Part shown: positions 1,813 to 13,329 of the stretch, piece by piece
Position numbering within the stretch: the stretch's first letter is position 1
Layout: each line of letters starts with the position of its first letter
From: Alphaproteobacteria bacterium
GTDB lineage: Bacteria > Pseudomonadota > Alphaproteobacteria > RF32 > CAG-239
Length of the DNA stretch: 36,328 bases
Assembly: GCA_017626035.1 (NCBI GenBank)
Contig: JAGAJR010000018.1
Coordinates: 1 to 36,328, forward strand
Reading direction: 5' to 3'
The notes under the pieces: model-generated
Seen by the model: only the letters and a program-made list of their open reading frames with translations
The model's database searches: none
Told to the model about the DNA's origin: nothing
Made by a program: the position numbers and the translations under genes

Positions 1813-2436
1813 TTATTGGCTTGCCCAGACAATTCTGTTGACCAGAGCAATATTTTGAATGGTTATGGTGCTTTCAATATCTTTATTTAACAAATCGCAG
1901 ACTTCCAACGAGGAAGATGTCCGGCGGATAAATTCGTTGATAAGAACCCGTCCGTCTTTAAGCAAAACAACGATTCGGTCTCCTTGGCGTATTTCTGAGT
2001 TCTGGCTGATAATAAGCGTTGTATTTCTGCGATAAAAAGGCTCAAAAAAGTCAACATCCACCTCAACGGAATAGATGTTGCAGACAGTATCTGGAAACCG
2101 GATTTTACCCCATTGGTCGGTAATGACTTTGGCGTCTTCAATCGGGTTGTTGGCTATTTTTGAGAATTTTACATAAGGAACAAAATTTTGTGTCTCCGAA
2201 ATAGCATTGTTTTCGTTCATCAGATTGTAGAACTGATCAAAAGTCATATTGCAGACTTCCAAAATTTTATTGAGGCTGTCCAGAGAAGGCCATCTTTTTT
2301 TTCCGTCCGGACGGATTCGTTTGCTTTTGTTAAAAGTTGTGGAATCTAAGCCGGCTTTTTTAGCGAGTCCGGAAGGGGACAGGCCGTTAATTTTTGCCAA
2401 CTTATCAACAGCTCCCCATACATTTTCGTACTTCAT
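1813..2436 (-). CDS. XRE-family regulator with a degenerate S24/LexA-like C-terminal domain
   Basis: Transcriptional regulator of 207 aa. Residues about 5-70 form the helix-turn-helix, with the GLSPSGLAKKAGLDSTTFNK signature typical of a conserved alphaproteobacterial S24-family regulator. The C-terminal half follows the S24 fold (VEVDVDFFEPFYRRN, QGDRIVVLLKDGRVLINEF) and ends IVWASQ. Active homologues carry GDSM for the nucleophile and an ELKRR-type Lys; here these positions read VDFF and NEFIRR. Both Ser and Lys are therefore missing and self-cleavage should be impossible. The gene is divergent from the phage cassette and shares the 2437-2599 intergenic region, where a 7-bp inverted repeat overlaps the cassette promoter. 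I infer that it controls the cassette. A GAGAGGGA ribosome site supports the start. Confidence 0.85.
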   Translation of the reverse strand: MKYENVWGAVDKLAKINGLSPSGLAKKAGLDSTTFNKSKRIRPDGKKRWPSLDSLNKILEVCNMTFDQFYNLMNENNAISETQNFVPYVKFSKIANNPIEDAKVITDQWGKIRFPDTVCNIYSVEVDVDFFEPFYRRNTTLIISQNSEIRQGDRIVVLLKDGRVLINEFIRRTSSSLEVCDLLNKDIESTITIQNIALVNRIVWASQ

Positions 2437-2487
2437 ATTCCCTCTCTATGGCTTGAATTTTGGCGATAACTTCATCATAAATCATTC

Positions 2488-2531
2488 TTTGTTAGGAATC
2501 AATTCTTTTTTTATATTGAAATTCCTACAAC
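2488..2531. promoter_or_regulatory. Inverted-repeat operator candidate overlapping the phage cassette promoter
   Basis: TAGGAAT (2493-2499) and ATTCCTA (2521-2527) are exact inverted copies. The similarity extends outwards as TTGT and CAAC with a one-base offset. The left arm overlaps the -35 box and the right arm overlaps the predicted transcription start of the plus-strand promoter. A dimeric repressor bound here would block the promoter. The obvious candidate is the divergent regulator at 1813-2436. Confidence 0.5.
2489..2517 (+). promoter_or_regulatory. Sigma70 promoter of the phage structural cassette
   Basis: -35 TTGTTA (2489-2494), 17-bp spacer with an eight-base T tract, -10 TATATT (2512-2517). 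The predicted start is near 2524, about 75 nt before the first gene. It is the best promoter seen before the cassette, and the first genes are closely spaced behind it. Confidence 0.65.
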
Positions 2532-2599
2532 CTTATGTATAAGTTCAAATTATTAACAAATAGTTAAAGCAGTTTATTGCAACTTTATGGAGAAGAAAT

Positions 2600-2932
2600 A
2601 TGAATGAAGAATATGAGCCGTTTGACAATGTGGAACAGGTCTGGTTTTGGTTTTGCGGCTGTCTGATTGTGCGGGGAGACGGTGTCCGCGGCTGTCAGGA
2701 TTATGTTGGTAAACTCAGAAATTGTGAGATTGGGGATATTTACCGGATAATCAAAAGAATGAAGTTTCTGCATCAGATAACCAATCGTCATCTGAGAATC
2801 ATGGCAAAATGGGGAAATTTATATTGTCCGCCGTATTATGACAAACGAGCCAAACGTAGCGAAATCCGCCTTTGGGACGAGGGAATGAAGGTTTTGGAAG
2901 CACATCTGAAAGAAAAGAGGATTATTTTATGA
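2600..2932 (+). CDS. Hypothetical protein, 110 aa, first gene of the phage cassette
   Basis: Function unknown. The N-terminal part has an aromatic helix (VEQVWFWFCGCLIVRGDGVRG). The middle looks like a winged-helix-type segment (IGDIYRIIKRMKFLHQITNRHLRIMAKWG), followed by a PPYYDKRAKRSEIRLWDEGM motif. The pattern resembles short alphaproteobacterial proteins with an ITxxHLxxLxxxGxxxxPP...LWDEA core that I have seen without assigned function; that is recollection, not a search. The ATG has a GGAGAAG ribosome site. The stop overlaps the next start (ATGA), implying translational coupling. It precedes the packaging genes, so a regulatory or DNA-binding role is possible. Confidence 0.7.
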   Translation: MNEEYEPFDNVEQVWFWFCGCLIVRGDGVRGCQDYVGKLRNCEIGDIYRIIKRMKFLHQITNRHLRIMAKWGNLYCPPYYDKRAKRSEIRLWDEGMKVLEAHLKEKRIIL

Positions 2933-3339
2933 ATGTTGAGCTTTCCGGATTAAAGCATTTCAAAGCCGTATATGTGGTTTTTGTTGACAATACAAGCCTT
3001 TGGTGGCTGAAATTGTTGAAAAGAAATTTTCGCCATTGTTATGTTTTGTTTCAGGTGGATGGGCAGGGAACCTGGTTGGAATTGAATCCTATGTCAAATC
3101 AAACGATAATAAATTTATATGAATATAGTCCTGATTTTGATTATATTTCCTATCTGGAAGATTCTCAAAATGCCGTTTGCGTCCGGACGAATGTTGTGTC
3201 TTCTCCCTTAAAACCGGCTCCCATAATGGCATTCACCTGCGTCGAGTTTGTCAAAAGAATTATCGGCCTGCACAGCCGAAAGGTATTTACTCCTCATCAA
3301 TTGTATAAAAAAATACAAGTTGTAGGAAAAAAGTCTTGA
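2929..3339 (+). CDS. Hypothetical protein, 136 aa, possible permuted papain-like fold
   Basis: The start chosen is the ATG at 2929, which overlaps the previous stop as ATGA and has AGAGG 8 nt upstream; the frame is open further upstream only inside the previous gene. The protein has a hydrophobic, Trp-containing first half (VYVVFVDNTSLWWLKLL), a His in RHCYVLFQ and, near the C-terminus, TCVEFVKRIIGLH followed by FTPHQLYKKI. His first and a Cys at the head of a helix later is the order of circularly permuted NlpC/P60 or LRAT-type enzymes, so a cysteine amidase/peptidase is possible. This is weak inference. It may instead be a non-catalytic virion or packaging accessory protein. Confidence 0.7.
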   Translation: MNVELSGLKHFKAVYVVFVDNTSLWWLKLLKRNFRHCYVLFQVDGQGTWLELNPMSNQTIINLYEYSPDFDYISYLEDSQNAVCVRTNVVSSPLKPAPIMAFTCVEFVKRIIGLHSRKVFTPHQLYKKIQVVGKKS

Positions 3340-3436
3340 CAAATGATTTTTTTTGTGTTACGTATTCTCACATGCCACTTGCCAGTAGTGTATCTAAAAT
3401 AAATAAAATTAATCTTAACGAAATTGATTGAACAAG

Positions 3437-3459
3437 GACCCGGACAGGGTCTTTTTTTT
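3437..3459 (+). terminator. Weak hairpin with T run between early genes and terminase genes
   Basis: GACCC and GGGTC pair around a 5-nt loop, followed by eight T. The stem is short, so it is probably leaky; it would attenuate transcription into the terminase genes. The 132-nt gap it sits in (3340-3471) is the largest inside the cassette. It also holds a TTGACA (3336-3341) with no good -10 at the usual distance. Confidence 0.45.
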
Positions 3460-3471
3460 ATGGAGTTTTTT

Positions 3472-3780
3472 ATGACGGTAAAAAAAGTAAAAACTCTGAA
3501 AGCTCTCAAAAATCGTTTGAAAAAAACACTGCCGGAAAAAATATCTGAAGTCATCGCCAGTTACGAAGTGTTTTCGGAGCATCCTGTTCCCGAAGACGCC
3601 AAAGGTTTCGGAGCCCATCACACCGCTTGCAAAGCTGCGGTCGTTCATGCCGAAACCCTTTTGAAACTGGCTAAATGGACGGATGACAAGGAAATGGCGG
3701 AAACAAAAACGAATGAAGATATTTTGGAGATGATAGCACAAGCCCGAAACGAGTTGAGCCGAGACGATGATGACGATTGA
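3472..3780 (+). CDS. Putative terminase small subunit
   Basis: 102 aa. The ATG at 3472 is chosen because GGAG lies 6 nt upstream; the longer frame would need a TTG start through the hairpin. The basic N-terminus (KKVKTLKALKNRLKKTL), helical middle (AHHTACKAAVVHAETLLKLAKW) and acidic tail ending DDDDD suit a small DNA-recognition subunit that contacts the large terminase. It overlaps the TerL start by 14 nt. The assignment rests on position and size; no helix-turn-helix is obvious, so it could be another packaging accessory. Confidence 0.55.
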   Translation: MTVKKVKTLKALKNRLKKTLPEKISEVIASYEVFSEHPVPEDAKGFGAHHTACKAAVVHAETLLKLAKWTDDKEMAETKTNEDILEMIAQARNELSRDDDDD

Positions 3781-5254
3781 CTTTTTTGAGTTTGTTTATG
3801 TCTGGTTCCGGCTGCAGGGACTAAGCGTTCCGAAACATCAGCGGAAAATGGCGAAATGGCTCTCAAAGCTTTATGCCGAAGACAGCGGAAGGCAGGCTCT
3901 TCTGATGGCTTTCCGCAACTCGGGAAAATCAACGGTTGTCGGTTTGTTTTGTGCCTGGGCGTTATATCGGGACAATGCCTGCCGGATTTTGGTGATTGCC
4001 GCCGATTATGCTTTGGCAAAAAAAATGGTGCGGAACGTAAAGCGGATTATTGAGCAGCATCCTTTAACCGGAAATCTAAAGCCTTCCAAATTGGAACAAT
4101 GGGCTTCGGATCAGTTTACGATTAAAAGGAAACTGGAACTCAGGGATCCGTCCATGCTTGCCAAAGGTCTGGATGCCAATATTACCGGTTTGCGGGCGGA
4201 TTTGATTATTTGTGATGATGTGGAGGTTCCCAGGAATTGCGATACGCCGCTCAAACGTCGGGAGATGAGGGAAAAGCTCAAGGAATTGGATTATATTCTG
4301 ACCCCGGGCGGCATTCAACTCTATATCGGCACGCCGCATACGTTTTATACGATTTATCAGACGGAGAGAAAAGAGGAAAAACAAGAAACAGAACCTTTTC
4401 TTTTGAATTTTGCAAAATTGGAAATTCCGATTTTGAATAATGAGGGGAAAAGCAGTTGGCCGGAACGTTTTTCTGAAGAAAAAATCGCCTCAATCCGGCA
4501 ACGCTCCGGCGAAAATAAATTTATGTCGCAGATGATGCTGAAACCGCTAAACCTCAAAAACAGCCTTCTTAATCCCGATCGCCTGAAACCGTATCGGCAA
4601 GAGTTGTCTCTGACTTTCGCCAACGGAAAAACAATTCTGAAAATCGGAGAACGAAAAATGCTCTCGGCATCGGCTTGGTGGGATCCGTCCTTTGCAGCGG
4701 AGAAAAGCGACAACAGCGTTGTTGCCTGCGTTTTCACTGATGAGGATGGGCAATATTGGCTTCATGATTTGGAATATATCCGGATTGATAAAAAAGACGA
4801 GGATAAAGCCGCCACGCTTCAATGTGAAAAGATTGCGGACTTCATTGAAAGAAACCATTTGCCGTCGCTGCGGATAGAAGTTAACGGCATCGGCAGATTT
4901 CTGCCCGGAATTTTGAAACAAACGCTAAAAAATCGAAAAATACGGGCGGCTGTTTTGGAAGTTTATTCCAGCAGTAATAAAGAAAAGCGGATACAGGAGG
5001 CTTTTGAGGTGTTGTTGGCCGAGCGGGCATTGAATGTTCACGGCCGCATTTGGCAAACGCCGTTTATTAAGGAAATGCGGGAATGGTCGCCGCTCGGTTC
5101 GGTTAAAGATGATGCTTTGGATGCCGTTGCCGGATGCCTGCGTTCCGAACCGCTTCGTTTTGCATCTGCAGGTGTATCGGGGGAGATATTAAAGGGAGCG
5201 GATTGGCAAGGCGGCGGACAAGCTTTTTATGCCAAGTCCGATTTTGAAATTTAA
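3767..5254 (+). CDS. terL: Phage terminase large subunit (ATPase plus nuclease)
   Basis: Packages DNA into the procapsid, using ATP hydrolysis and cutting concatemeric DNA. 495 aa, a normal length. The ATPase domain has a Walker A AFRNSGKST (residues 48-56), Walker B LIICDDVE (146-153) and a coupling motif YIGTP (186-190). The nuclease domain shows an RNase H-like set: Asp in WWDPSFA (about 306), Glu in RIEVNG (about 371) and the KDDALDAV segment (about 448-453). All key residues are intact, so it is probably active. A second in-frame ATG immediately follows the first. The gene is overlapped by the TerS-like gene and followed by the lysis genes. Confidence 0.93.
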   Translation: MMTIDFFEFVYVWFRLQGLSVPKHQRKMAKWLSKLYAEDSGRQALLMAFRNSGKSTVVGLFCAWALYRDNACRILVIAADYALAKKMVRNVKRIIEQHPLTGNLKPSKLEQWASDQFTIKRKLELRDPSMLAKGLDANITGLRADLIICDDVEVPRNCDTPLKRREMREKLKELDYILTPGGIQLYIGTPHTFYTIYQTERKEEKQETEPFLLNFAKLEIPILNNEGKSSWPERFSEEKIASIRQRSGENKFMSQMMLKPLNLKNSLLNPDRLKPYRQELSLTFANGKTILKIGERKMLSASAWWDPSFAAEKSDNSVVACVFTDEDGQYWLHDLEYIRIDKKDEDKAATLQCEKIADFIERNHLPSLRIEVNGIGRFLPGILKQTLKNRKIRAAVLEVYSSSNKEKRIQEAFEVLLAERALNVHGRIWQTPFIKEMREWSPLGSVKDDALDAVAGCLRSEPLRFASAGVSGEILKGADWQGGGQAFYAKSDFEI

Positions 5255-5267
5255 GAAGGAAACAACA

Positions 5268-5522
5268 ATGTTTAATGAATATTATACGTGGGCGGCAATG
5301 ATTGAAATTCCGGTCTTTGCCGCTTTATTTCGAATGTTGGTAAAACAGAAAAAGGAATGTGAAACGGATATCGGACGCTGCCGGGAGGCATTGTCTGAAT
5401 TCAAACTTCACGTTGCCCGAAATTATGTATCCGTCAATTATTTGAAGGATGTAGAAAATCGTCTGACCAACCATTTGCTGCGGATAGAGAAGAAACTTGA
5501 TGACGTGGGGAGGCCGAGATGA
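5268..5522 (+). CDS. Small membrane-anchored coiled-coil protein of the lysis module
   Basis: 84 aa. The ATG at 5268 has AAGAAGGA upstream. A short hydrophobic N-terminal segment (WAAMIEIPVFAALFRMLV) is followed by a charged helical/coiled-coil region (YLKDVENRLTNHLLRIEKKLDD). This layout is common for small phage proteins located next to holin and endolysin genes, and it could be a spanin-like or holin-accessory protein. No lipobox is seen. The stop overlaps the next start (ATGA). Confidence 0.65.
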   Translation: MFNEYYTWAAMIEIPVFAALFRMLVKQKKECETDIGRCREALSEFKLHVARNYVSVNYLKDVENRLTNHLLRIEKKLDDVGRPR

Positions 5523-5950
5523 CAAATAAAGATGCGGATATTTTGGCCCGGACAATTTACGGGGAAGCAAGAGGCGAGAGCATTTCCGGACAGGAGGCAA
5601 TCGCCTCTGTTGTTTTAAACCGGGTAAATTTCTCTTTGCAAAAGGGGCGTTACTGGTGGGGAAACAGCATATCGGACGTGTGCAAATCTCCTTATCAGTT
5701 TTCTTGTTGGAACAAAAATGACCCGAATTTTGAGCGGCTTAACAAGGTAGATGAGACGGATATAAATTTTTGTATTTGCAAACGAATTGCCTTGCGTGCG
5801 GTTTCAGGACTTCTGGAAGATAAAACCGGAGGGGCGACACATTATCATGTAAAAAATCTTCGTCCCCGCTGGTCAGTCGGAAAAATCCCCTGTGCGGAAA
5901 TCGGACGCCATGTCTTTTATAACGATATTGAGAAACAGCCATGCGGTTAA
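5519..5950 (+). CDS. Cell wall hydrolase, SleB type (Hydrolase_2 family), likely endolysin
   Basis: Peptidoglycan hydrolase of 143 aa, expected to act as the endolysin. It has the family signature ARTIYGEARGES (residues 10-21, Glu16 being the likely catalytic acid), then IASVVLNRV and the late THYHVKNLRPRWS segment (about 107-119) typical of PF07486. It has no signal peptide, so export would depend on the neighbouring holin-like protein. The gene is translationally coupled on both sides: 4-nt overlap upstream and 10-nt overlap downstream. SleB-type hydrolases are also found in alphaproteobacterial gene transfer agents and prophages. Confidence 0.88.
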   Translation: MTNKDADILARTIYGEARGESISGQEAIASVVLNRVNFSLQKGRYWWGNSISDVCKSPYQFSCWNKNDPNFERLNKVDETDINFCICKRIALRAVSGLLEDKTGGATHYHVKNLRPRWSVGKIPCAEIGRHVFYNDIEKQPCG

Positions 5951-6279
5951 AACGGTTAAAATTTTTTCGAAATTTGCTTGGCGGAATAAAATTTTCTCCG
6001 GCAGGCGAAGAAGGCCGAAGCCTTTTGGAGAGGTTTTGGCGGCCGCTGTTCGGATATTGCGTTTCATTAACCTGGGTCGCCTACATTTTAACAATCTGTT
6101 GGACAGCTTTGAGCAGAGGAGAGCACACGGCCGAAATAATCAATGCCCTGCTGGAAGCCGTGTCTTTATGGAGCATGGCACTGGGCGTTTTGGGCGTATC
6201 GGTCGTAAAAAGCAGTTCGGCAAAACAGAAGTCGGTTTCAAAACAAGAAACGGATATGAAGCAACAACATAAACTTTAA
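5941..6279 (+). CDS. Holin-like membrane protein
   Basis: 112 aa. A basic N-terminus (MRLKRLKFFRN) is followed by WRPLFGYCVSLTWVAYILTI (a transmembrane segment, about residues 32-57) and a second hydrophobic segment IINALLEAVSLWSMALGVLG (about 66-88), then a charged tail. The 'RP + TM + short loop + TM with Gly' layout resembles the 3TM holin family first named from gene transfer agents (PF11351). That is a pattern judgement, not a search. It starts inside the end of the hydrolase gene, as expected for a coupled lysis pair, and would open the inner membrane for the hydrolase. Confidence 0.65.
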   Translation: MRLKRLKFFRNLLGGIKFSPAGEEGRSLLERFWRPLFGYCVSLTWVAYILTICWTALSRGEHTAEIINALLEAVSLWSMALGVLGVSVVKSSSAKQKSVSKQETDMKQQHKL

Positions 6280-6292
6280 GAAAGGAAAAAAT

Positions 6293-6505
6293 ATGGGAGG
6301 AGTATTTAGATTCAGTGCCCCGTCGTCGGCACCGGTCATTGTCGATAATTCAGCGGAAATTGCCAAACAGCAGGCGGAAGAAGAACGCAAAAAGGCCTTG
6401 GAACGCCAAAGAAGAGGCTGGGAAAGCAATATTAAAACATCTTATGCCGGATTGTTGGGCGAGAAGGAAAACAACCTTCAGCGTAAAAAACTGCTTGGAG
6501 AATAA
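6293..6505 (+). CDS. Small coiled-coil phage protein before the portal gene
   Basis: 70 aa. It starts MGGVFRFSAPSSAP, then a long charged helix (AEIAKQQAEEERKKALERQRRGW) and a C-terminal SYAGLLG segment. Many podoviruses and siphoviruses carry a small protein with an MGG-F-PxxP start and an Ala/Glu/Arg helix near the portal or tail genes; its role is not settled. AAGGAAAAA precedes the ATG at 6293. Two nucleotides separate its stop from the portal start. Confidence 0.7.
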   Translation: MGGVFRFSAPSSAPVIVDNSAEIAKQQAEEERKKALERQRRGWESNIKTSYAGLLGEKENNLQRKKLLGE

Positions 6506-6507
6506 CC

Positions 6508-8016
6508 ATGGAAAACAGACTGGAAAAACTGGTCGAACGCTATAAAAAAGCGGCGGAACGAAAACAAAATTGGGAACCTCATTGGCAGGAATGTTATGAA
6601 TACGCATTTCCGCAGAGAGAAAACGTTAGTTTTTCTTCGGCACAAAATGATTACGGAGCGAAAAAGAACGCACATTTGTTTGACGGAACGGCTCCCGATG
6701 CGGTTGACCAGCTGGCTTCGTCCCTGTTGGCGGAACTGACGCCGTCTTGGGCCAAATGGTTTGGACTGCGTGCCGGAAACGAACTGGGAGATATTGAAAA
6801 AGAACAAATTTCCGGGTTGCTGGAACAAACTTCGGATATTATGCTGCAAAACTTTGAACATTCTAATTTTGCAGTGGAAATTCACCAGTGTTATTTGGAT
6901 TTGATAATCGCCGGAACAGCTTGCCTGATGTTTGAGGAAGCCCCTCTGGGAGAAGCGACGGCGTTTCATTTTTATGCGGTTCCTTTGCGGGAGATTGCCA
7001 TTGAGGAAAGTGCCGACGGAAGAATAGATACGACATTCCGCCGGTCGCAAATAACGCTGGACGGGATAAGAATGCGTTTTCCGGAAACGGAAATTCCGCC
7101 CGAAGTTTTGGAACGCAGCCAAGAAGACAGAAACTTCAAGTTTAATTTGATAGAAGCCGTTCAGCCTCGCAATTATGCAGGCGGTGCCATGGGATATGAC
7201 TATACGGCTTTTATTTTGAATGAAGACAATCCGGGAACGGAAAGCTGGATTTTGAAAGAAGGGATTTTTGAGACGTCGCCTTTTATCAATTTCCGCTGGT
7301 TGAAAGCACCGGGAGAAATCTACGGGCGTTCTCCGGTAATGAAAGCTTTGCCGGATATTAAAACCGCCAATAAGGTTGTGGAACTGATTTTGAAAAATGC
7401 GTCAATTTCAGTAACCGGAATTTGGCAGGCGGATGATGACGGCATTTTAAATCCGTCAAACATAAAACTTGTTCCGGGAGCGATTATTCCCAAAGCGGTG
7501 GGGTCTAAAGGGCTGACTCCTTTGGAAGCTCCGGGAAAATTTGACATCTCCCAGCTGGTATTGGAAGATTTGCGGAAACGCATCAACCATGCTTTGCTGG
7601 CGGACAGGCTTGCTCAGGTGGACAGCCCTTCAATGACGGCAACCGAGGTGTTGGAACGTTCGGCGGAAATGGCCCGGATTTTGGGAGCCAGTTTCGGAAG
7701 GCTTCAAACTGAGCTTTTAACCCCGCTTTTGAAAAGGGCTTTTCATATTTTGAGAAGGCGGGGAGACATCAGGAATTTTGACCTTGACGGCAAAATTGTT
7801 GATTTGCAGTATAAGTCGCCTTTGGCTTTGGTGCAGGCACGCAAGGATGTGGGAAACATATCAGAGTGGATAAACTTAGTGGCAACGCTTGGTGAGCAGG
7901 GAATGTCCGCCGTCAATTTTTTTGAAGCGGCAAAATGGCTCGGCAAGACTTTAAGCGTTCCCGCAAACTTGATTGTTGAAACAAAACCGGAGGCAGCTGA
8001 TGCAGGGGCTGTATGA
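6508..8016 (+). CDS. Portal / head-to-tail connector protein (T7 gp8-like family)
   Basis: Forms the dodecameric portal ring through which DNA enters and to which the tail tube attaches. 502 aa, in the usual range for the PF12236 head-tail connector family of podoviruses. Recognisable segments are RKQNWEPHWQECYEYAFPQ near the N-terminus, FDGTAPDAVDQLASSLL (about residues 54-70), the LTPSWAKWF stretch, GEIYGRSPVMKALPDIKTAN (about 269-288) and MTATEVLERSAEMARILG (about 374-391), all typical of this family. The gene is uninterrupted and overlapped at its 3' end by the next gene. Confidence 0.92.
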   Translation: MENRLEKLVERYKKAAERKQNWEPHWQECYEYAFPQRENVSFSSAQNDYGAKKNAHLFDGTAPDAVDQLASSLLAELTPSWAKWFGLRAGNELGDIEKEQISGLLEQTSDIMLQNFEHSNFAVEIHQCYLDLIIAGTACLMFEEAPLGEATAFHFYAVPLREIAIEESADGRIDTTFRRSQITLDGIRMRFPETEIPPEVLERSQEDRNFKFNLIEAVQPRNYAGGAMGYDYTAFILNEDNPGTESWILKEGIFETSPFINFRWLKAPGEIYGRSPVMKALPDIKTANKVVELILKNASISVTGIWQADDDGILNPSNIKLVPGAIIPKAVGSKGLTPLEAPGKFDISQLVLEDLRKRINHALLADRLAQVDSPSMTATEVLERSAEMARILGASFGRLQTELLTPLLKRAFHILRRRGDIRNFDLDGKIVDLQYKSPLALVQARKDVGNISEWINLVATLGEQGMSAVNFFEAAKWLGKTLSVPANLIVETKPEAADAGAV

Positions 8017-8224
8017 CACGGCAAAAATGACCGATGAGGAAATCAGGATGTCATTTGCCAAATGTTTTGGCAGCCGGGAAGGACGTATTGTCCTTTCATT
8101 TTTAAAACGAATAACCATGGAGCGGTATCTCGGGCCGGATTGCACCTCGGACGAATTACGTCATTTGGAAGGGCAGCGGAGCTTAATAGGTTATATTTTT
8201 TCGCTCCTTAATAATCATTGCTGA
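8000..8224 (+). CDS. Small hypothetical phage protein, 74 aa, overlapping the portal 3' end
   Basis: The ATG at 8000 has a CGGAGG ribosome site 6 nt upstream, inside the last codons of the portal gene, giving a 17-nt overlap in another frame. The protein is helical (MTDEEIRMSFAKCFGSREGRIVLSFLKRITMERYL) and ends LRHLEGQRSLIGYIFSLLNNH. Short proteins with 'SxEGxxVLxxL...EGxRxLxxxI' between portal and scaffold genes are common in T7-like phages. The function is unknown; a head-completion or scaffolding accessory role is only a guess from position. Confidence 0.75.
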   Translation: MQGLYDTAKMTDEEIRMSFAKCFGSREGRIVLSFLKRITMERYLGPDCTSDELRHLEGQRSLIGYIFSLLNNHC

Positions 8225-8245
8225 TTTTTTTAGAAAGGAAAATTT

Positions 8246-8947
8246 ATGAACGAAAACAAAACGGAAAATCTGTTGGAACAACCGGAAGGCAAAATGTCTT
8301 CTTCTCTCCGCAGATATAATCTGCCGGAGAAATTTTACGATGCCGGCACCGGAGAAATAAAGGTGGAGGAATTGGCCGCCGCTTATAACGAACTGGCCGC
8401 AAGGGACAGTAATCTGGTGGAGGGAAATATCAGAAACATTCCGTCCAGCTATGACAAATACGAGATTAAAATTCCCAATCCGCTTTTGGAAAGGGATGAT
8501 GAGGTTTTAAAAAGATTTCATCAATGCGGTTTCAGCAACGAACAGGCACAATTGGTTTATGACCTTGCCAATGAACGCGTTATTCCGGTAATCGACCAAT
8601 TGACGGTTAATTTTGAAGCTCAGAAACAGTTGGAAAAACTGGTGAGATATTTCGGCGGACAAGAACGTTTCAATGAAATTTCACGCCAGATTTCAACTTG
8701 GGCAAAAGGCAATCTGCGTCCTGAAATTTATGATGCTTTGGGAACGACTTCCGAAGGCGTGATTGCTCTTTACAAAATGATGTCGTCCAATGAACCGGGA
8801 TTGGGAAAAGACGGTTTTACGGAAGAAGAGTTAAGCGAGGATAAACTTCGTAAGATGATGGAGGATCCTCGGTATTGGCGGGATAAGGACAAGTCCTATA
8901 TTGCCAAAATCACCAATGGCTTTGAGAAGTTATACCCTGAGAAATAA
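8246..8947 (+). CDS. Capsid assembly / scaffolding protein
   Basis: Guides capsid assembly and is later lost. 233 aa, acidic and mostly helical, with the N-terminus disordered and charged and the C-terminus basic (KSYIAKITNGFEKLYPEK), as in scaffolding proteins that dock to the capsid shell through a positive C-terminal helix. It lies between portal and major capsid genes, the fixed position for this function in T7-like phages. The motif PEKFYDAGTGEIKVEELAAA matches the 'PEKFxDxxGxxxxxxLxxxY' start seen in many such proteins. AGAAAGGAA precedes the ATG. Confidence 0.82.
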   Translation: MNENKTENLLEQPEGKMSSSLRRYNLPEKFYDAGTGEIKVEELAAAYNELAARDSNLVEGNIRNIPSSYDKYEIKIPNPLLERDDEVLKRFHQCGFSNEQAQLVYDLANERVIPVIDQLTVNFEAQKQLEKLVRYFGGQERFNEISRQISTWAKGNLRPEIYDALGTTSEGVIALYKMMSSNEPGLGKDGFTEEELSEDKLRKMMEDPRYWRDKDKSYIAKITNGFEKLYPEK

Positions 8948-8963
8948 ATCCTTGGGGTTTTTT
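8934..8963 (+). terminator. Weak hairpin with T run before the capsid gene
   Basis: ACCCTGAG pairs with CTTGGGGT through two G-U pairs around a 9-nt loop and is followed by a T run. It overlaps the scaffold stop codon. It could be a leaky attenuator or an mRNA processing site that stabilises capsid mRNA. Confidence 0.35.
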
Positions 8964-8994
8964 ATTATAAAATTTTATCAATGGAGAAAAATAT

Positions 8995-9834
8995 ATGTCT
9001 ACGAAAGTAAGTGAATCTTTTATCAAGCAGTTTGAAGCCGATGTTCATTTGGCTTATCAGCAGTCAGGCTCCAAACTGAGAGATACCGTTCGTTATAAGA
9101 ATGATGTGAAAGGCTCGTCCACCGTTTTTCAAAAAGTGGGAAAAGGCATTGCTTCGCAAAAAGCCCGCCACGGTTTGGTTCCGGTGATGAGTTTGGATCA
9201 TACGCCGGTGGAATGTGAATTGCAGGATTATTACGCCGGTGATTGGGTTGATGCTCTGGATGAGTTGAAAATCAGCATTGACGAAAGAAGAGTGATTGCC
9301 AATTCCGGAGCTTATGCTTTGGGCAGAAAAACCGATGAGTTGATTATCGGGGCATTGGCTAAAGCTTCTTCAGGCAATGATGTCGGCGATTATACCAAAG
9401 TCATGTCTAAAAAAGACATTTTGGATGCGTTTGCCAAATTAAACGAAAACAATGTGCCTGACGACGGGCAGCGTTTTGGCCTGGTAGGTCCTCACCAGTG
9501 GAATGCCTTGTTGAATATTCCGGAGTTTTCCAGCTCTGACTATGCCGGAGACAATCTGCCGTTTTTAAAAGGGACGGAATGTCGCAAATGGCTTGGCATT
9601 AACTGGATTATGCACACCGGATTGCCTTTGGATGGAACGCAGCGTGATTGCTTCATTTTCCATAAAACCGCGGTCGGACATGCTTCCGGGCAGGATGTCA
9701 AAACCGATATTACCTGGCACGGCGATCATGCCGCCCACTTCATTAATAATATGATGAGCCAGGGAGCTTGTCTGATTGATGAGAGCGGCGTTGTCCGGAT
9801 TAAGTGTAAAGAAGCGGCTGCTGTAACCGCATAA
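8995..9834 (+). CDS. Major capsid protein
   Basis: Main shell protein, 279 aa, shorter than T7 gp10 but normal for the compact podovirus/phage capsid family. An N-terminal helical region (SESFIKQFEADVHLAYQQSGSKL) is followed by the VRYKNDVKGSSTVFQKVGKG strand region, a long central helix-rich part (DERRVIANSGAYALGRKTDELI) and VGPHQWNALLN. The C-terminal part has DITWHGDHAAHFINNMMSQGA, the conserved end of this capsid group. A strong ribosome site (ATGGAGAAA) and a terminator soon after the next gene fit the need for high expression. Confidence 0.9.
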   Translation: MSTKVSESFIKQFEADVHLAYQQSGSKLRDTVRYKNDVKGSSTVFQKVGKGIASQKARHGLVPVMSLDHTPVECELQDYYAGDWVDALDELKISIDERRVIANSGAYALGRKTDELIIGALAKASSGNDVGDYTKVMSKKDILDAFAKLNENNVPDDGQRFGLVGPHQWNALLNIPEFSSSDYAGDNLPFLKGTECRKWLGINWIMHTGLPLDGTQRDCFIFHKTAVGHASGQDVKTDITWHGDHAAHFINNMMSQGACLIDESGVVRIKCKEAAAVTA

Positions 9835-9854
9835 TTTTTTGAAAGGAGAAAACA

Positions 9855-10127
9855 ATGGCTTTTAACAGTAAAGATTTCAGCGTCATGGCTTATGCCAACG
9901 GTTTCACATTATGGAACTATGCTTCGGCGGATAAATTGGCGGCAGTAAAGGGAACCGGATATTTCAATGAAACGGCTCCGTTTGTTTGCAAAGGAGATAT
10001 GATTTTGACCGTTGCCAATAAGGAGGCGGCAATTGAAAGTGCAATCCTCAGTGTCGAAAATGTCGGCGACGGAAGCGTTTCCGTCAGTGATATGACGACA
10101 GCGGCAGTGTCGACGCCTGCTTCTTAA
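9855..10127 (+). CDS. Small phage protein after the capsid gene, possible decoration protein
   Basis: 90 aa. It contains the sequence MAYANGFTLWNYASADKLAAV, followed by GYFNETAPFVCKGDMILT. This is a recurrent 'ANGFTLWxYxTxD...GYFN....VGDxI' pattern in proteins encoded next to phage capsid genes. The body is beta-rich with a Ser/Thr/Ala tail. Position and beta content suggest a capsid-stabilising or head-surface role; this is inference. AAAGGAG precedes the ATG. The intrinsic terminator at 10160-10188 follows. Confidence 0.78.
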   Translation: MAFNSKDFSVMAYANGFTLWNYASADKLAAVKGTGYFNETAPFVCKGDMILTVANKEAAIESAILSVENVGDGSVSVSDMTTAAVSTPAS

Positions 10128-10159
10128 TAATTTTATTTTTACATACTGGAATTTGGCTG

Positions 10160-10188
10160 GGGGCTGTTTTCGGACAGCCCCGTTTTTT
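10160..10188 (+). terminator. Strong intrinsic terminator after the capsid genes
   Basis: GGGGCTG (10160-10166) and CAGCCCC (10175-10181) form a GC-rich stem with an 8-nt loop, followed by G and six T. It separates the head genes from the tail genes. T7 has its main late terminator at the same place, after the capsid gene and before tail tubular A. No promoter is evident after it, so tail genes would depend on read-through. Confidence 0.88.
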
Positions 10189-10205
10189 ATGATTGGAATA
10201 ATTAA

Positions 10206-10775
10206 ATGAATTACACCGACTTAAGCATTTGCTCCAATGCACTGCTCAAACTCGGAGCGGAAAGCATAACGTCTTACAAAGACGGGACGGCGGAAGCGGA
10301 AATCGCCTCTTCGCTGTATCCGTTGATAAGGGACAGCCTTTTGTCCTCTTATCCGTGGAAGTTTGCCGTCGCTCAAAAAAAATTGCAGCGTTTGGCGGAT
10401 TCTCCTATTGCGGATTACCGTTATGCCTATCTTCTGCCGAATAATTTTTTACGGGTAATTTCCGCCGGCGAAGGCGGACGCGGGCAGGGAATAACCTATG
10501 CGATTAATGAAAACCGCCTGCATACCGATAAAAGCGAAGTTACGTTGACTTATATTTTCCGACCTCCGGAAAGTTTGTTTCCTGCTTTTTTCTGTGAGGC
10601 GTTGGTAGCCAAACTTGCCGCGGAATTTTGCCTGCCGTTGACGGAAAGCACCAGCCGTGCGGAAATGCTTGCCAAAATCAGCGATGATTTGGTAGCTAAA
10701 GCCCGTCTGATTGATGCCCAGCAGGCAACACCGTCATGCTTTGAAGATTATACATTGGTGGAGGCAAGAAAATGA
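10206..10775 (+). CDS. Tail tubular protein A (T7 gp11-like, gatekeeper)
   Basis: Forms the ring that joins the portal to the tail nozzle. 189 aa, close to T7 gp11. The N-terminal ICSNALLKLGAESITSY and the SLYPLIRDSLLSSYPWKFA segment (about residues 34-53) are diagnostic for the family, followed by YAYLLPNNFLRVI (about 73-85). Its stop overlaps the start of tail tubular B by four nt (ATGA). It comes directly after the mid-cassette terminator. Confidence 0.9.
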   Translation: MNYTDLSICSNALLKLGAESITSYKDGTAEAEIASSLYPLIRDSLLSSYPWKFAVAQKKLQRLADSPIADYRYAYLLPNNFLRVISAGEGGRGQGITYAINENRLHTDKSEVTLTYIFRPPESLFPAFFCEALVAKLAAEFCLPLTESTSRAEMLAKISDDLVAKARLIDAQQATPSCFEDYTLVEARK

Positions 10776-12673
10776 GCAATATGATTTCGGTAAAAACAAA
10801 TTTCACGTCGGGGCAGGTGTCGGAAAATCTGTTCGGACGGGGTGATTTGAAAATTTTTGAAAACGGAGCTTCTTGTTTGGAAAATGTGCTTATTCAACCG
10901 ACCGGCGGCGTTTCAAGAAGGTATGGAACCAGATTTGTGGAGGAGTTGTCCAAACCGGCAAAGTTAATTCCTTTTGAGTTTAATACGGAACAAATTTACC
11001 TCATATGTATCATGGACAGTGAAGTGAAAGTTTATAAAAACGACGAGTGTATTGCCGATTTGGAAGCTCCTTGGAAAGAAGAACACCTTCACAACCTGAA
11101 TTGGACACAGAGTGCCGATACGTTGCTGATTGTAACGCCGGATGTTCCGCCTCAGCAGATAAGCAGGAATAACGGAGAGGTATGGGAAATTGGCGAATGG
11201 AAGTTTTATACGGCAGACGGGTTTGTTTATTGCCCTTACTATAACTTTTTCAAATATAAGGAAAAAATAAACACGACCGGTTCTTCGGGAACGATAAACA
11301 TCACGGCGGCTAATGATATTTTTGACGAGAATTATGTCGGCAGCCTGATAAAAATTAACGGCGGGCTGGTGGAGGTAAGCGAGTATGTCAATGCCAAAAC
11401 GTTAAAAGGCGTTGTGCAGAAAACGCTTACGTCCGTGAAGGAAACCGACGATTGGGAAGAAAGTTCCTTTTCAAAGAGAAGAGGATATCCGTCTTCGGTA
11501 ACGTTTCATCAGGACAGAATGGTTATCGGCGGTTCAAAAAGTCTGCCCAATCGCTTATGGTTGTCAAAATCTTCTGATTTGTTTAATTTTGATTTAGGCG
11601 AGGGCAAAGATGACGAGGCAATAGAATTTGCCATTTTGTCAGATCAGGTAAATGCGATTAAAGCTGTTGTTTCCAGCCGCCATCTTCAGGTATTTACCAC
11701 CGGGGCGGAATGGATGGTCAGCGGCGATCCTTTGACGCCGTCAAGTATTCAGCTGCACCGCCAGACCAGTATCGGTATTTATTCCGGAAAAAATCTTCCT
11801 CCGCAGCCGATTGGCGGAGCGACGGTTTTTATCTCATCCAACGGAAAACAATTGCGTGAATTTTTGTATACGGATTTGGAACAGGCTTATCAGGCAAAGG
11901 ATTTGACGTTGATGAGTTCCGATATGCTCAGTTTTCCGACGGATATTGTTTTTAATCCGGATGAAGCCGTTTTGTATATCTTGCAGGAAGACGGAACAGC
12001 TTCTTGCCTGACCAGTTATCGTTCGGAAGAGGTAAATGCCTGGAGCAGGATTAAAACAAACGGGCACTTCTTGTTTATGACGGTTATCGGAGCGGACGTC
12101 TATGTTTGCACACTCAGAAACGGCCGGTATTTTTTGGAGAAATTTGACAAGGAAACCTATTCTGATTGCACTCTTTTTCTAAGTTCGGAAACCCCGAAAA
12201 AAGAATGGTCGGGATTAGACGTTTTGGAAGGAAACGAAGTTACGGTTATCGCGGATGGTTTCAGCGTCGGCAAACAGGTTGTAACCGGTGGCGGAATTGT
12301 TTTGCTGGATGCCGCAAAAGAAATCATTGTCGGAATACCCTATCTTCACGTCATCGAGCCTCTGCCGTTTATGGTGGATGCGGTGCGTCCGTATGCTCCT
12401 TCGGCTCTGCGGATTGTGTGGGGAATGTTTCGCCTTATTAATACCAGGGCGTTTTGCATAGATATCGGCTGCGGGTATTTTCAGGTTCCGCTCAAACGTG
12501 TTCATCGGGATGTTATACTTGATTCGCCGCCGTCATATTATTCGGGGGATGTGTGTTTACGGTCGTTAGGGTGGAAAAGAGAAATGAAAAAGCCGTTGTG
12601 GAGTATAAAAAGCGATGAACCTTTGGCGTTCACATTACTTTCGGCGGCGTTGGAAATTAAAGTTAAAGGATAA
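10772..12673 (+). CDS. Tail tubular protein B (T7 gp12-like nozzle)
   Basis: Forms the hexameric tail nozzle of a podovirus. 633 aa, compared with about 790 for T7 gp12, so a short version. The N-terminal NFTSGQVSENLFGRGDL and NVLIQPTGGVSRRYGTRFV segments (about residues 10-52) are the family hallmark. Later blocks are IPFEFNTEQIYLI, YPSSVTFHQDRMVIGGSKSLPNRLWLSKS (read as two adjacent motifs at about 235-265) and the VNAIKAVVSSRHLQVFTTGAEW stretch. GTGGAGG precedes the ATG. In full podoviruses, internal core and fibre genes follow; here only two small genes do. Confidence 0.9.
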   Translation: MSNMISVKTNFTSGQVSENLFGRGDLKIFENGASCLENVLIQPTGGVSRRYGTRFVEELSKPAKLIPFEFNTEQIYLICIMDSEVKVYKNDECIADLEAPWKEEHLHNLNWTQSADTLLIVTPDVPPQQISRNNGEVWEIGEWKFYTADGFVYCPYYNFFKYKEKINTTGSSGTINITAANDIFDENYVGSLIKINGGLVEVSEYVNAKTLKGVVQKTLTSVKETDDWEESSFSKRRGYPSSVTFHQDRMVIGGSKSLPNRLWLSKSSDLFNFDLGEGKDDEAIEFAILSDQVNAIKAVVSSRHLQVFTTGAEWMVSGDPLTPSSIQLHRQTSIGIYSGKNLPPQPIGGATVFISSNGKQLREFLYTDLEQAYQAKDLTLMSSDMLSFPTDIVFNPDEAVLYILQEDGTASCLTSYRSEEVNAWSRIKTNGHFLFMTVIGADVYVCTLRNGRYFLEKFDKETYSDCTLFLSSETPKKEWSGLDVLEGNEVTVIADGFSVGKQVVTGGGIVLLDAAKEIIVGIPYLHVIEPLPFMVDAVRPYAPSALRIVWGMFRLINTRAFCIDIGCGYFQVPLKRVHRDVILDSPPSYYSGDVCLRSLGWKREMKKPLWSIKSDEPLAFTLLSAALEIKVKG

Positions 12674-12685
12674 AAGGAGACTAAA

Positions 12686-13126
12686 ATGGGAGGATTGTCA
12701 TCAATAGCGTCAAGCAGTGTCGGAGATGCCGTAAAAAAGACGATAAAAACGGGCGGAATGGCCGCTCCGTTAATTCCGACGGCCTTTGTCGGCAAACAGC
12801 TGACACAGTTGTCCGATAATAAAAATCAACTGAATAAGCAGTTAATATCGTTAAAAAACAGTCAGGAAATAAACCGCAGGAACAAAAAGAACATTCTTGA
12901 AGAACAGCTTGCATCAAGAAGAGCCAGATTGGGCAGTATGGGCATATCCGTCGGCGGTTCTGCGGTGGCCGGACAGCAGGGATTGTCCCGAAAAATTTAT
13001 GAAGACATTGCTCAGGATGATACCCGATATGACGAACGTTATTCCGATATTTACAACGACTATCAAAAACGGCTGCGTCAACAATTGTTAAGCACGGTTG
13101 ATACGGCGTCCAAGGTTATTAAATAA
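12686..13126 (+). CDS. Putative internal virion protein (T7 gp14-like)
   Basis: 146 aa. A Gly/Ala/Ser-rich hydrophobic N-terminal part (SVGDAVKKTIKTGGMAAPLI) is followed by a long helical region (QINRRNKKNILEEQLASRRARLGSMGISVGGS) and a Gln/Arg/Tyr-rich helix (YSDIYNDYQKRLRQQLL). The order 'helix with repeated N/Q/R, LGSxGIxxGG, then YxxxYxxQL' resembles T7 gp14 and its relatives, which enter the cell envelope at infection. The match is by pattern only. AAAGGAGA precedes the ATG at 12686. Confidence 0.62.
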   Translation: MGGLSSIASSSVGDAVKKTIKTGGMAAPLIPTAFVGKQLTQLSDNKNQLNKQLISLKNSQEINRRNKKNILEEQLASRRARLGSMGISVGGSAVAGQQGLSRKIYEDIAQDDTRYDERYSDIYNDYQKRLRQQLLSTVDTASKVIK

Positions 13127-13137
13127 AGGAGAAAAAA

Positions 13138-13329
13138 ATGCCGAGATTAAAACTGACTTATGCGGAAAAACGGCGTCGGGATTTTGAAAAGGAACTTCCT
13201 GTTGCGGAACAGCTGGATGCGATTCTGAAAGCTTTTGACATGGTTTTGCAGGAAGGCGGAGAACTTCCTTACGACTTGATAAATATCATTGAAAAATGGC
13301 AGGAAATAAAATTTCGTTATCCGAAATAA
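13138..13329 (+). CDS. Small phage tail-module protein, 63 aa
   Basis: A short acidic-basic helical protein with KRRRDFEKELPVAEQLDAI near the N-terminus and IEKWQEIKFRYPK at the C-terminus. The pair 'P(x)xxQLDAI ... IKxxYPK' recurs in small proteins encoded near phage tail or fibre genes, whose role is unclear. It is the last gene of the cassette: AAAGGAG upstream, terminator 5 nt after the stop. Its position is where a tail fibre or tail-assembly gene would normally be found next. Confidence 0.72.
   Translation: MPRLKLTYAEKRRRDFEKELPVAEQLDAILKAFDMVLQEGGELPYDLINIIEKWQEIKFRYPK

Follow-up and report, generated by a model that had tools for sequence, protein, structure and literature searches.

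A conserved putative operator and a probable two-tier control region at a podovirus-type particle cassette of Alphaproteobacteria

The window, the whole stretch of 36,328 nucleotides that was analyzed, carries a cassette of phage-type particle genes beginning beside a divergently oriented regulator gene, and the question raised by the locus is which promoters and binding sites would control these genes. An earlier note had proposed a single near-consensus promoter for the whole cassette, overlapped by an inverted repeat with one arm on the -35 element and the other on the start point, which together would make a simple repressor switch. The letters on which this proposal was built are present: TTGTTA at 2489-2494 and TATATT at 2512-2517 with 17 bp between them, TAGGAAT at 2493-2499 with its exact inverse ATTCCTA at 2521-2527, and a divergent regulator reading frame that starts at 2436, 52 bp away from 2488. 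The genome of the window is 1.64 Mb long with a completeness rating of 100%, and the exact spaced inverted repeat was found in it once with no mismatches, in the window.

Among the 152 genomes of the window's family, relatives of the regulator were found in 35 and TerL in 26. In nearly all carriers, as far as the contigs extend, the cassette has the regulator on one side and the same phospholipase, solute-binding protein, MlaC and GltX genes on the other. The features of the window are listed in Table 1.

Table 1. Features of the control region and the cassette in the window
Feature	Position	Strand	Description and basis
Regulator REG	1813-2436	-	207 aa; HTH and S24-like domain, RogA-like, Ser/Lys dyad lost (Pfam, alignments)
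Regulator promoter	2474-2502	-	TTGATT (2502-2497), N17, TATGAT (2479-2474); from the conserved comparison
Putative operator O1	2493-2508		TAGGAATCAATTCTTT, TAGGAA-N4-TTCCTA type; contains the left arm
Promoter P1	2516-2543	+	TTGAAA (2516-2521), N16, TATAAG (2538-2543); 23 of 25 loci
Putative half-site O2	2521-2527		Right arm ATTCCTA, directly behind the -35
CtrA-type box	2553-2567		TTAA-N7-TTAA, just behind the predicted P1 start point
g1	2600-2932	+	110 aa; candidate Q21-like antiterminator (AlphaFold model, fold matches)
g2	2929-3339	+	136 aa; invariant His36, Cys37 and Cys104
Promoter P2	3323-3364	+	TAGGAAAAAAGTC, operator half overlapping TTGACA (3336-3341); weak -10 near 3359-3364
Leader inverted repeat	3376-3390	+	CACT-N7-AGTG; conserved in most of the window's family
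Intrinsic terminator	3434-3454	+	Between g2 and the terminase block
Late block	3472-13329	+	g3, TerL, cell-wall hydrolase, portal, scaffold-like protein, major capsid protein, tail tubular A and B, small genes

Arms and promoters between the regulator and g1

The intergenic DNA between the regulator and g1 was aligned for the 25 loci of the window's family that carry both the regulator and the cassette. The block at 2493-2543 had a mean identity of 0.90, against 0.45 and 0.42 in the neighbouring intergenic DNA, and the mean pairwise identities of the left and right arms were 0.97 and 0.96, respectively. TAGGAAT-N20..22-ATTCCTA was present in 23 of the 25 loci and absent from the shuffled sequences; the two exceptions (L086 and L087) have one or two changes in the arms. 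Conservation of the arms where regulator and cassette are both kept, which the earlier note had proposed as a check, was thus borne out. In nine genomes of a single genus the regulator still stands next to the phospholipase gene, and the cassette and the arms are both missing. Judged by its conservation, the arm site is a real and strongly conserved control site.

The promoter assigned by the earlier note was not supported by the same alignment. TTGTTA had an identity of 0.55, was found in one of the 25 loci, the window itself, and averaged 2.4 of six consensus matches across the relatives. TTGTTA-17-TATATT matches the sigma-70 consensus at 9 of 12 positions, and 22 sites of this quality occurred in 8 kb, compared with 15.0 ± 3.7 in shuffles; since such matches are common here, the sequence of a single genome could not decide on the promoter, and the decision came from the comparison, by which this candidate was dropped because it is not conserved. 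The conserved promoter, P1, begins 27 bp downstream. Its -35 element TTGAAA is identical in all 25 loci, and in 23 of them it is followed by N16-TATAA (0.03 expected). A second, divergent promoter precedes the regulator and is kept in the form TTGATT-N17-TATnnT in 23 of the 25 loci (0.12 expected). The two promoters face away from each other, each arm lying beside or on one of the -35 elements.

The arms were also considered as one simple operator, and this was rejected, as they belong to a longer layout. Their centres are 27-29 bp apart, a wide spacing for a single dimer, and the poly-T tract between them can differ in length by 2 bp. The left arm makes up one half of a putative 16-bp operator of the form TAGGAA-N4-TTCCTA, which occurs at a level of at least 9 of 12 positions in all 25 family loci (4.0 expected), and the right arm has no second operator half. 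The operator TAGGAATCAATTCTTT ends 7 bp before TTGAAA, which gives independent support for TTGAAA as the -35 element; the same gap is the commonest one in the Rhodospirillales loci. Of the repressor layout drawn by the earlier note there remains an operator that adjoins a promoter and most likely belongs to the divergent regulator, while the hexamers assigned to that promoter are replaced.

The regulator and the distribution of its putative operator

The Pfam matches of REG, HTH_26 and Peptidase_S24, were both under the gathering score, and no solved structure matching REG by sequence was found. In the alignment of relatives, every member of the window's family has other residues at the Ser and Lys positions of the catalytic dyad; a relative was also aligned with LexA/CI. 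The dyad is retained in many REG homologues of Rhodospirillales, and the C-terminus of the protein is conserved throughout the class; the dyad-keeping relatives outside the window's family may be ordinary prophage-like repressors. As the dyad is lost in REG, release by SOS self-cleavage would not be expected. One regulator copy (genome G128, locus L042) has an internal TAA.

Caulobacter RogA is a LexA-like repressor with missing catalytic residues that recognizes GGAA-N4-TTCC at its target promoter and acts on gafYZ (PMC9632790). Going by the published description, RogA is a protein of ~210 aa (about 213 aa), close to REG in length, with an N-terminal HTH and a C-terminal S24-like domain, and the LexA/CI catalytic residues are missing in RogA as they are in REG and its family. 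The GGAA-N4-TTCC of RogA is placed at the core promoter; sites that appear to be of the same form are conserved at P1, with half-sites at P2.

Relatives outside the family were found by a class-wide search with g1 and by a search of named genomes with the portal protein, and there are hundreds of relatives. The divergent pair followed by g2 and the portal, scaffold, capsid and tail tubular genes was found in Magnetospirillum, Azospirillum, Caenispirillum, Telmatospirillum, Skermanella and others, and the order REG, g1, g2, portal, scaffold, MCP, TTA, TTB was seen, within the reach of the contigs, in several dozen named loci. TAGGAA-N4-TTCCTA occurred at a level of at least 9 of 12 positions in 38 of 49 Rhodospirillales loci, compared with 3.3 expected. 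The site ends 4-9 bp before TTGAC, and often there is a second site 36 bp upstream, over the start codon of the regulator. A published repressor motif is thereby linked to another kind of cassette, of podovirus type, which occurs in Magnetospirillum, Azospirillum and gut bacteria. Three loci that carry the cassette (L268, L273 and L314) have record titles naming Lactobacillaceae, Stygiobacter and Methylocystaceae, which look misassigned.

The arms could instead be bound by a different protein, such as an activator that recruits RNA polymerase at P1, with the regulator acting elsewhere. The co-occurrence of arms and regulator fits this as well, the arms flank the -10 element rather than cover it, and the genus mentioned above keeps the regulator without them. 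However, the motif matches the published RogA site in form, and similar motifs stand at P2 and, in Rhodospirillales, over the start codon of the regulator itself, so that we find this explanation unlikely. The model of an operator shared by the two promoters and bound by REG rests on the conservation of the motif, its placement and its match to the published RogA motif. REG, as a RogA-like repressor of LexA/CI shape, would bind TAGGAA-N4-TTC(C/T) at and between the -35 boxes, and its binding would shut its own promoter and P1 together.

The small genes, the second promoter and predicted antitermination

In the earlier note, one promoter was to serve the whole cassette. P1 would in fact drive only two small genes, g1 and g2, and P2, followed by a terminator in the window and most relatives, precedes the terminase and structural genes. 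Searches with g1 by sequence and profile in Pfam, PHROGs and PDB gave nothing of weight. The structures that its AlphaFold model (pLDDT 84) matched best in fold were those of phage 21 antiterminator Q (6p1c and 6jnx_P, with Z 6.0 and 5.9, the next at 2.5); the match at Z 6.0 is weak and spans 89 residues, and the Foldseek match to Q21 is likewise weak (probability 0.20, E 2.8, TM 0.48). As the fold hint and the genomic layout agree, antitermination was taken as likely, and g1 is probably a Q21-like antiterminator. The conserved residues of g2 (Table 1) do not vary within the class, a pattern like that of a cysteine enzyme. A known enzyme was looked for among its fold matches and rejected, since these reached at most Z 4.4 with no clear match, and no PHROG family was found for g2.

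The P2 motif TAGGAAAAAAGTC is the sole copy without mismatches in the genome and is conserved in relatives. In Rhodospirillales the P2 operator was present at a level of at least 10 of 14 positions in 30 of 53 loci (1.6 expected). The operator of the window's family is one base shorter toward the -35 element, and it does not stand out when scored with the Rhodospirillales consensus. The terminator scan was positive at 18 of the 25 family loci, with no match in shuffles, and at 18 of the 53 Rhodospirillales loci, with 1.5 expected; it gave nothing in the other 7 and 35 loci, respectively. By these counts a terminator is shown in the window and in most members of its family, and outside the family in a minority only. 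Late promoter, leader and terminator together occupy 3323-3454 of the window, as in late control of the Q21 type. At one locus (genome G014, L092 3583-4911), g2 and g3 are separated by about 1.3 kb that includes short repeated pieces, 3' of the P2 leader.

The TTAA-N7-TTAA box was present in all 25 family loci (1.8 expected), in most of them 8-10 bp behind the -10 element of P1, and its spacer is poorly conserved. A CtrA orthologue with 71% identity is encoded in the window's genome. CtrA control of phage promoters has been reported in Alphaproteobacteria (PMC9437464); there, as here, a box of the host CtrA type stands in phage-type promoters, whereas the window has one predicted box, inside a chromosomal cassette. 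The conserved box behind the P1 start suggests that the host cell-cycle regulator may be involved in control.

The layout thus has two tiers and includes a probable antiterminator as well as a CtrA-type box, unlike the simple switch of the earlier note. While REG holds the shared operator, g1 and g2 would not be made; when repression lapses, g1 would load on RNA polymerase at P2, where the -35 element overlaps an operator half, and transcription would continue past the leader terminator, where there is one (the window and most relatives), to reach the terminase, lysis and structural genes. REG lacking the S24 dyad would not be released by SOS self-cleavage, and the CtrA-type box would bring in the host cell cycle. 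The single promoter TTGTTA-17-TATATT with a repressor over its -35 element and start point has its letters in place and an ideal spacing, but the poor identity of TTGTTA, the alternative -35 element identical in every locus, and the second promoter and terminator ahead of the structural genes make it highly improbable. We consider the model as a whole, with divergent promoters sharing an operator, a RogA-like repressor, P2 with antitermination and a GTA-like element, to be fairly likely.

For the Caulobacter GTA, control has been shown to involve a repressor first and then antitermination, by which transcription passes a terminator located after the first gene (PMC11150451). The likeness to RogA-gafYZ lies in a repressed operon that makes an antitermination factor, in the window a candidate one, and in a terminator close to where the particle cluster begins. 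The window differs in that its regulator is divergent from the cassette and adjoins it, its structural genes are of podovirus type, g1 and g2 are without known family, and a CtrA-type box stands at the promoter. The predicted structure of GafZ has no similarity to Q (PMC11150451). The phage 21 and lambda Q systems, with Q and a terminator in the pR' leader, share with the window an early operon, in the window one with a predicted Q21-like fold, and then a late promoter, short leader, terminator and late genes. In contrast to them, g1 has no detected sequence similarity to Q, the late promoter of the window also has a repressor half-site, and no replication or integration genes were recognized among the cassette proteins examined. 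The window is likely a second example of repressor and antitermination control of phage-like particle genes kept by bacteria.

Nature of the cassette

The portal, capsid and tail proteins of the window belong to podovirus-type families, and among annotated phages a Pelagibacter podovirus comes nearest (36% for the portal, 42% for the capsid). The chromosomal site of the cassette is fixed across genera, the distances of its proteins track those of the neighbouring host genes (r 0.74-0.96), and its median dN/dS was 0.02-0.08, with no internal stops (21 loci). By these comparisons the cassette is vertically inherited in the window's family. It has, as a GTA does, phage-derived particle genes that are under purifying selection and inherited with the host, and is best read from these data as a gene-transfer-agent-like, domesticated element derived from a podovirus. 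A podovirus-type GTA-like element of gut bacteria has been described in FpGTA of Faecalibacterium (PMC12946183), which is alike in particle type, although its host belongs to another phylum. In a machine-learning survey, none of the Rhodospirillales examined was classed as a carrier of RcGTA-like clusters (PMC6821227).

The element could also be an ordinary temperate prophage, defective or still active, with a CI-like repressor and with the switch working as described. The repressor, the early gene with a Q-like fold and the late promoter do recall the late control of lambdoid phages, the S24 dyad is retained in many Rhodospirillales homologues, and relatives are counted in hundreds. Nevertheless, the single chromosomal site across genera, the co-divergence with neighbouring host genes and the strong purifying selection speak against it, and no annotated phage exceeded 42% for the capsid, the one closer record being an unannotated faecal scaffold of 5 kb. 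This makes an ordinary prophage doubtful, though less so than the other alternatives above. Returning to the domesticated element, the cassette would tentatively, at somewhat below even chances, represent a widespread and so far undescribed podovirus-type GTA lineage of Rhodospirillales and gut relatives, with a RogA-type repressor and a Q21-like antiterminator, in which the repressor of the gut family has lost self-cleavage and CtrA has been wired in.

The faecal scaffold, MT838907.1 (L166), is a human record titled 'Bacteriophage sp.', with its portal 75% and its capsid 82% identical to those of the window, which makes it a probable fragment of such a cassette. None of the 80 IMG/VR contigs listed was longer than 22.8 kb. 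In some Rhodospirillales (L139, L281 and L305), several kb of other genes separate the scaffold and capsid genes. In genome G026 (L101 5377-5583) the terminase, portal and capsid genes are absent and g2 is directly followed by a short piece and tail tubular A, with P1 and the arms kept.
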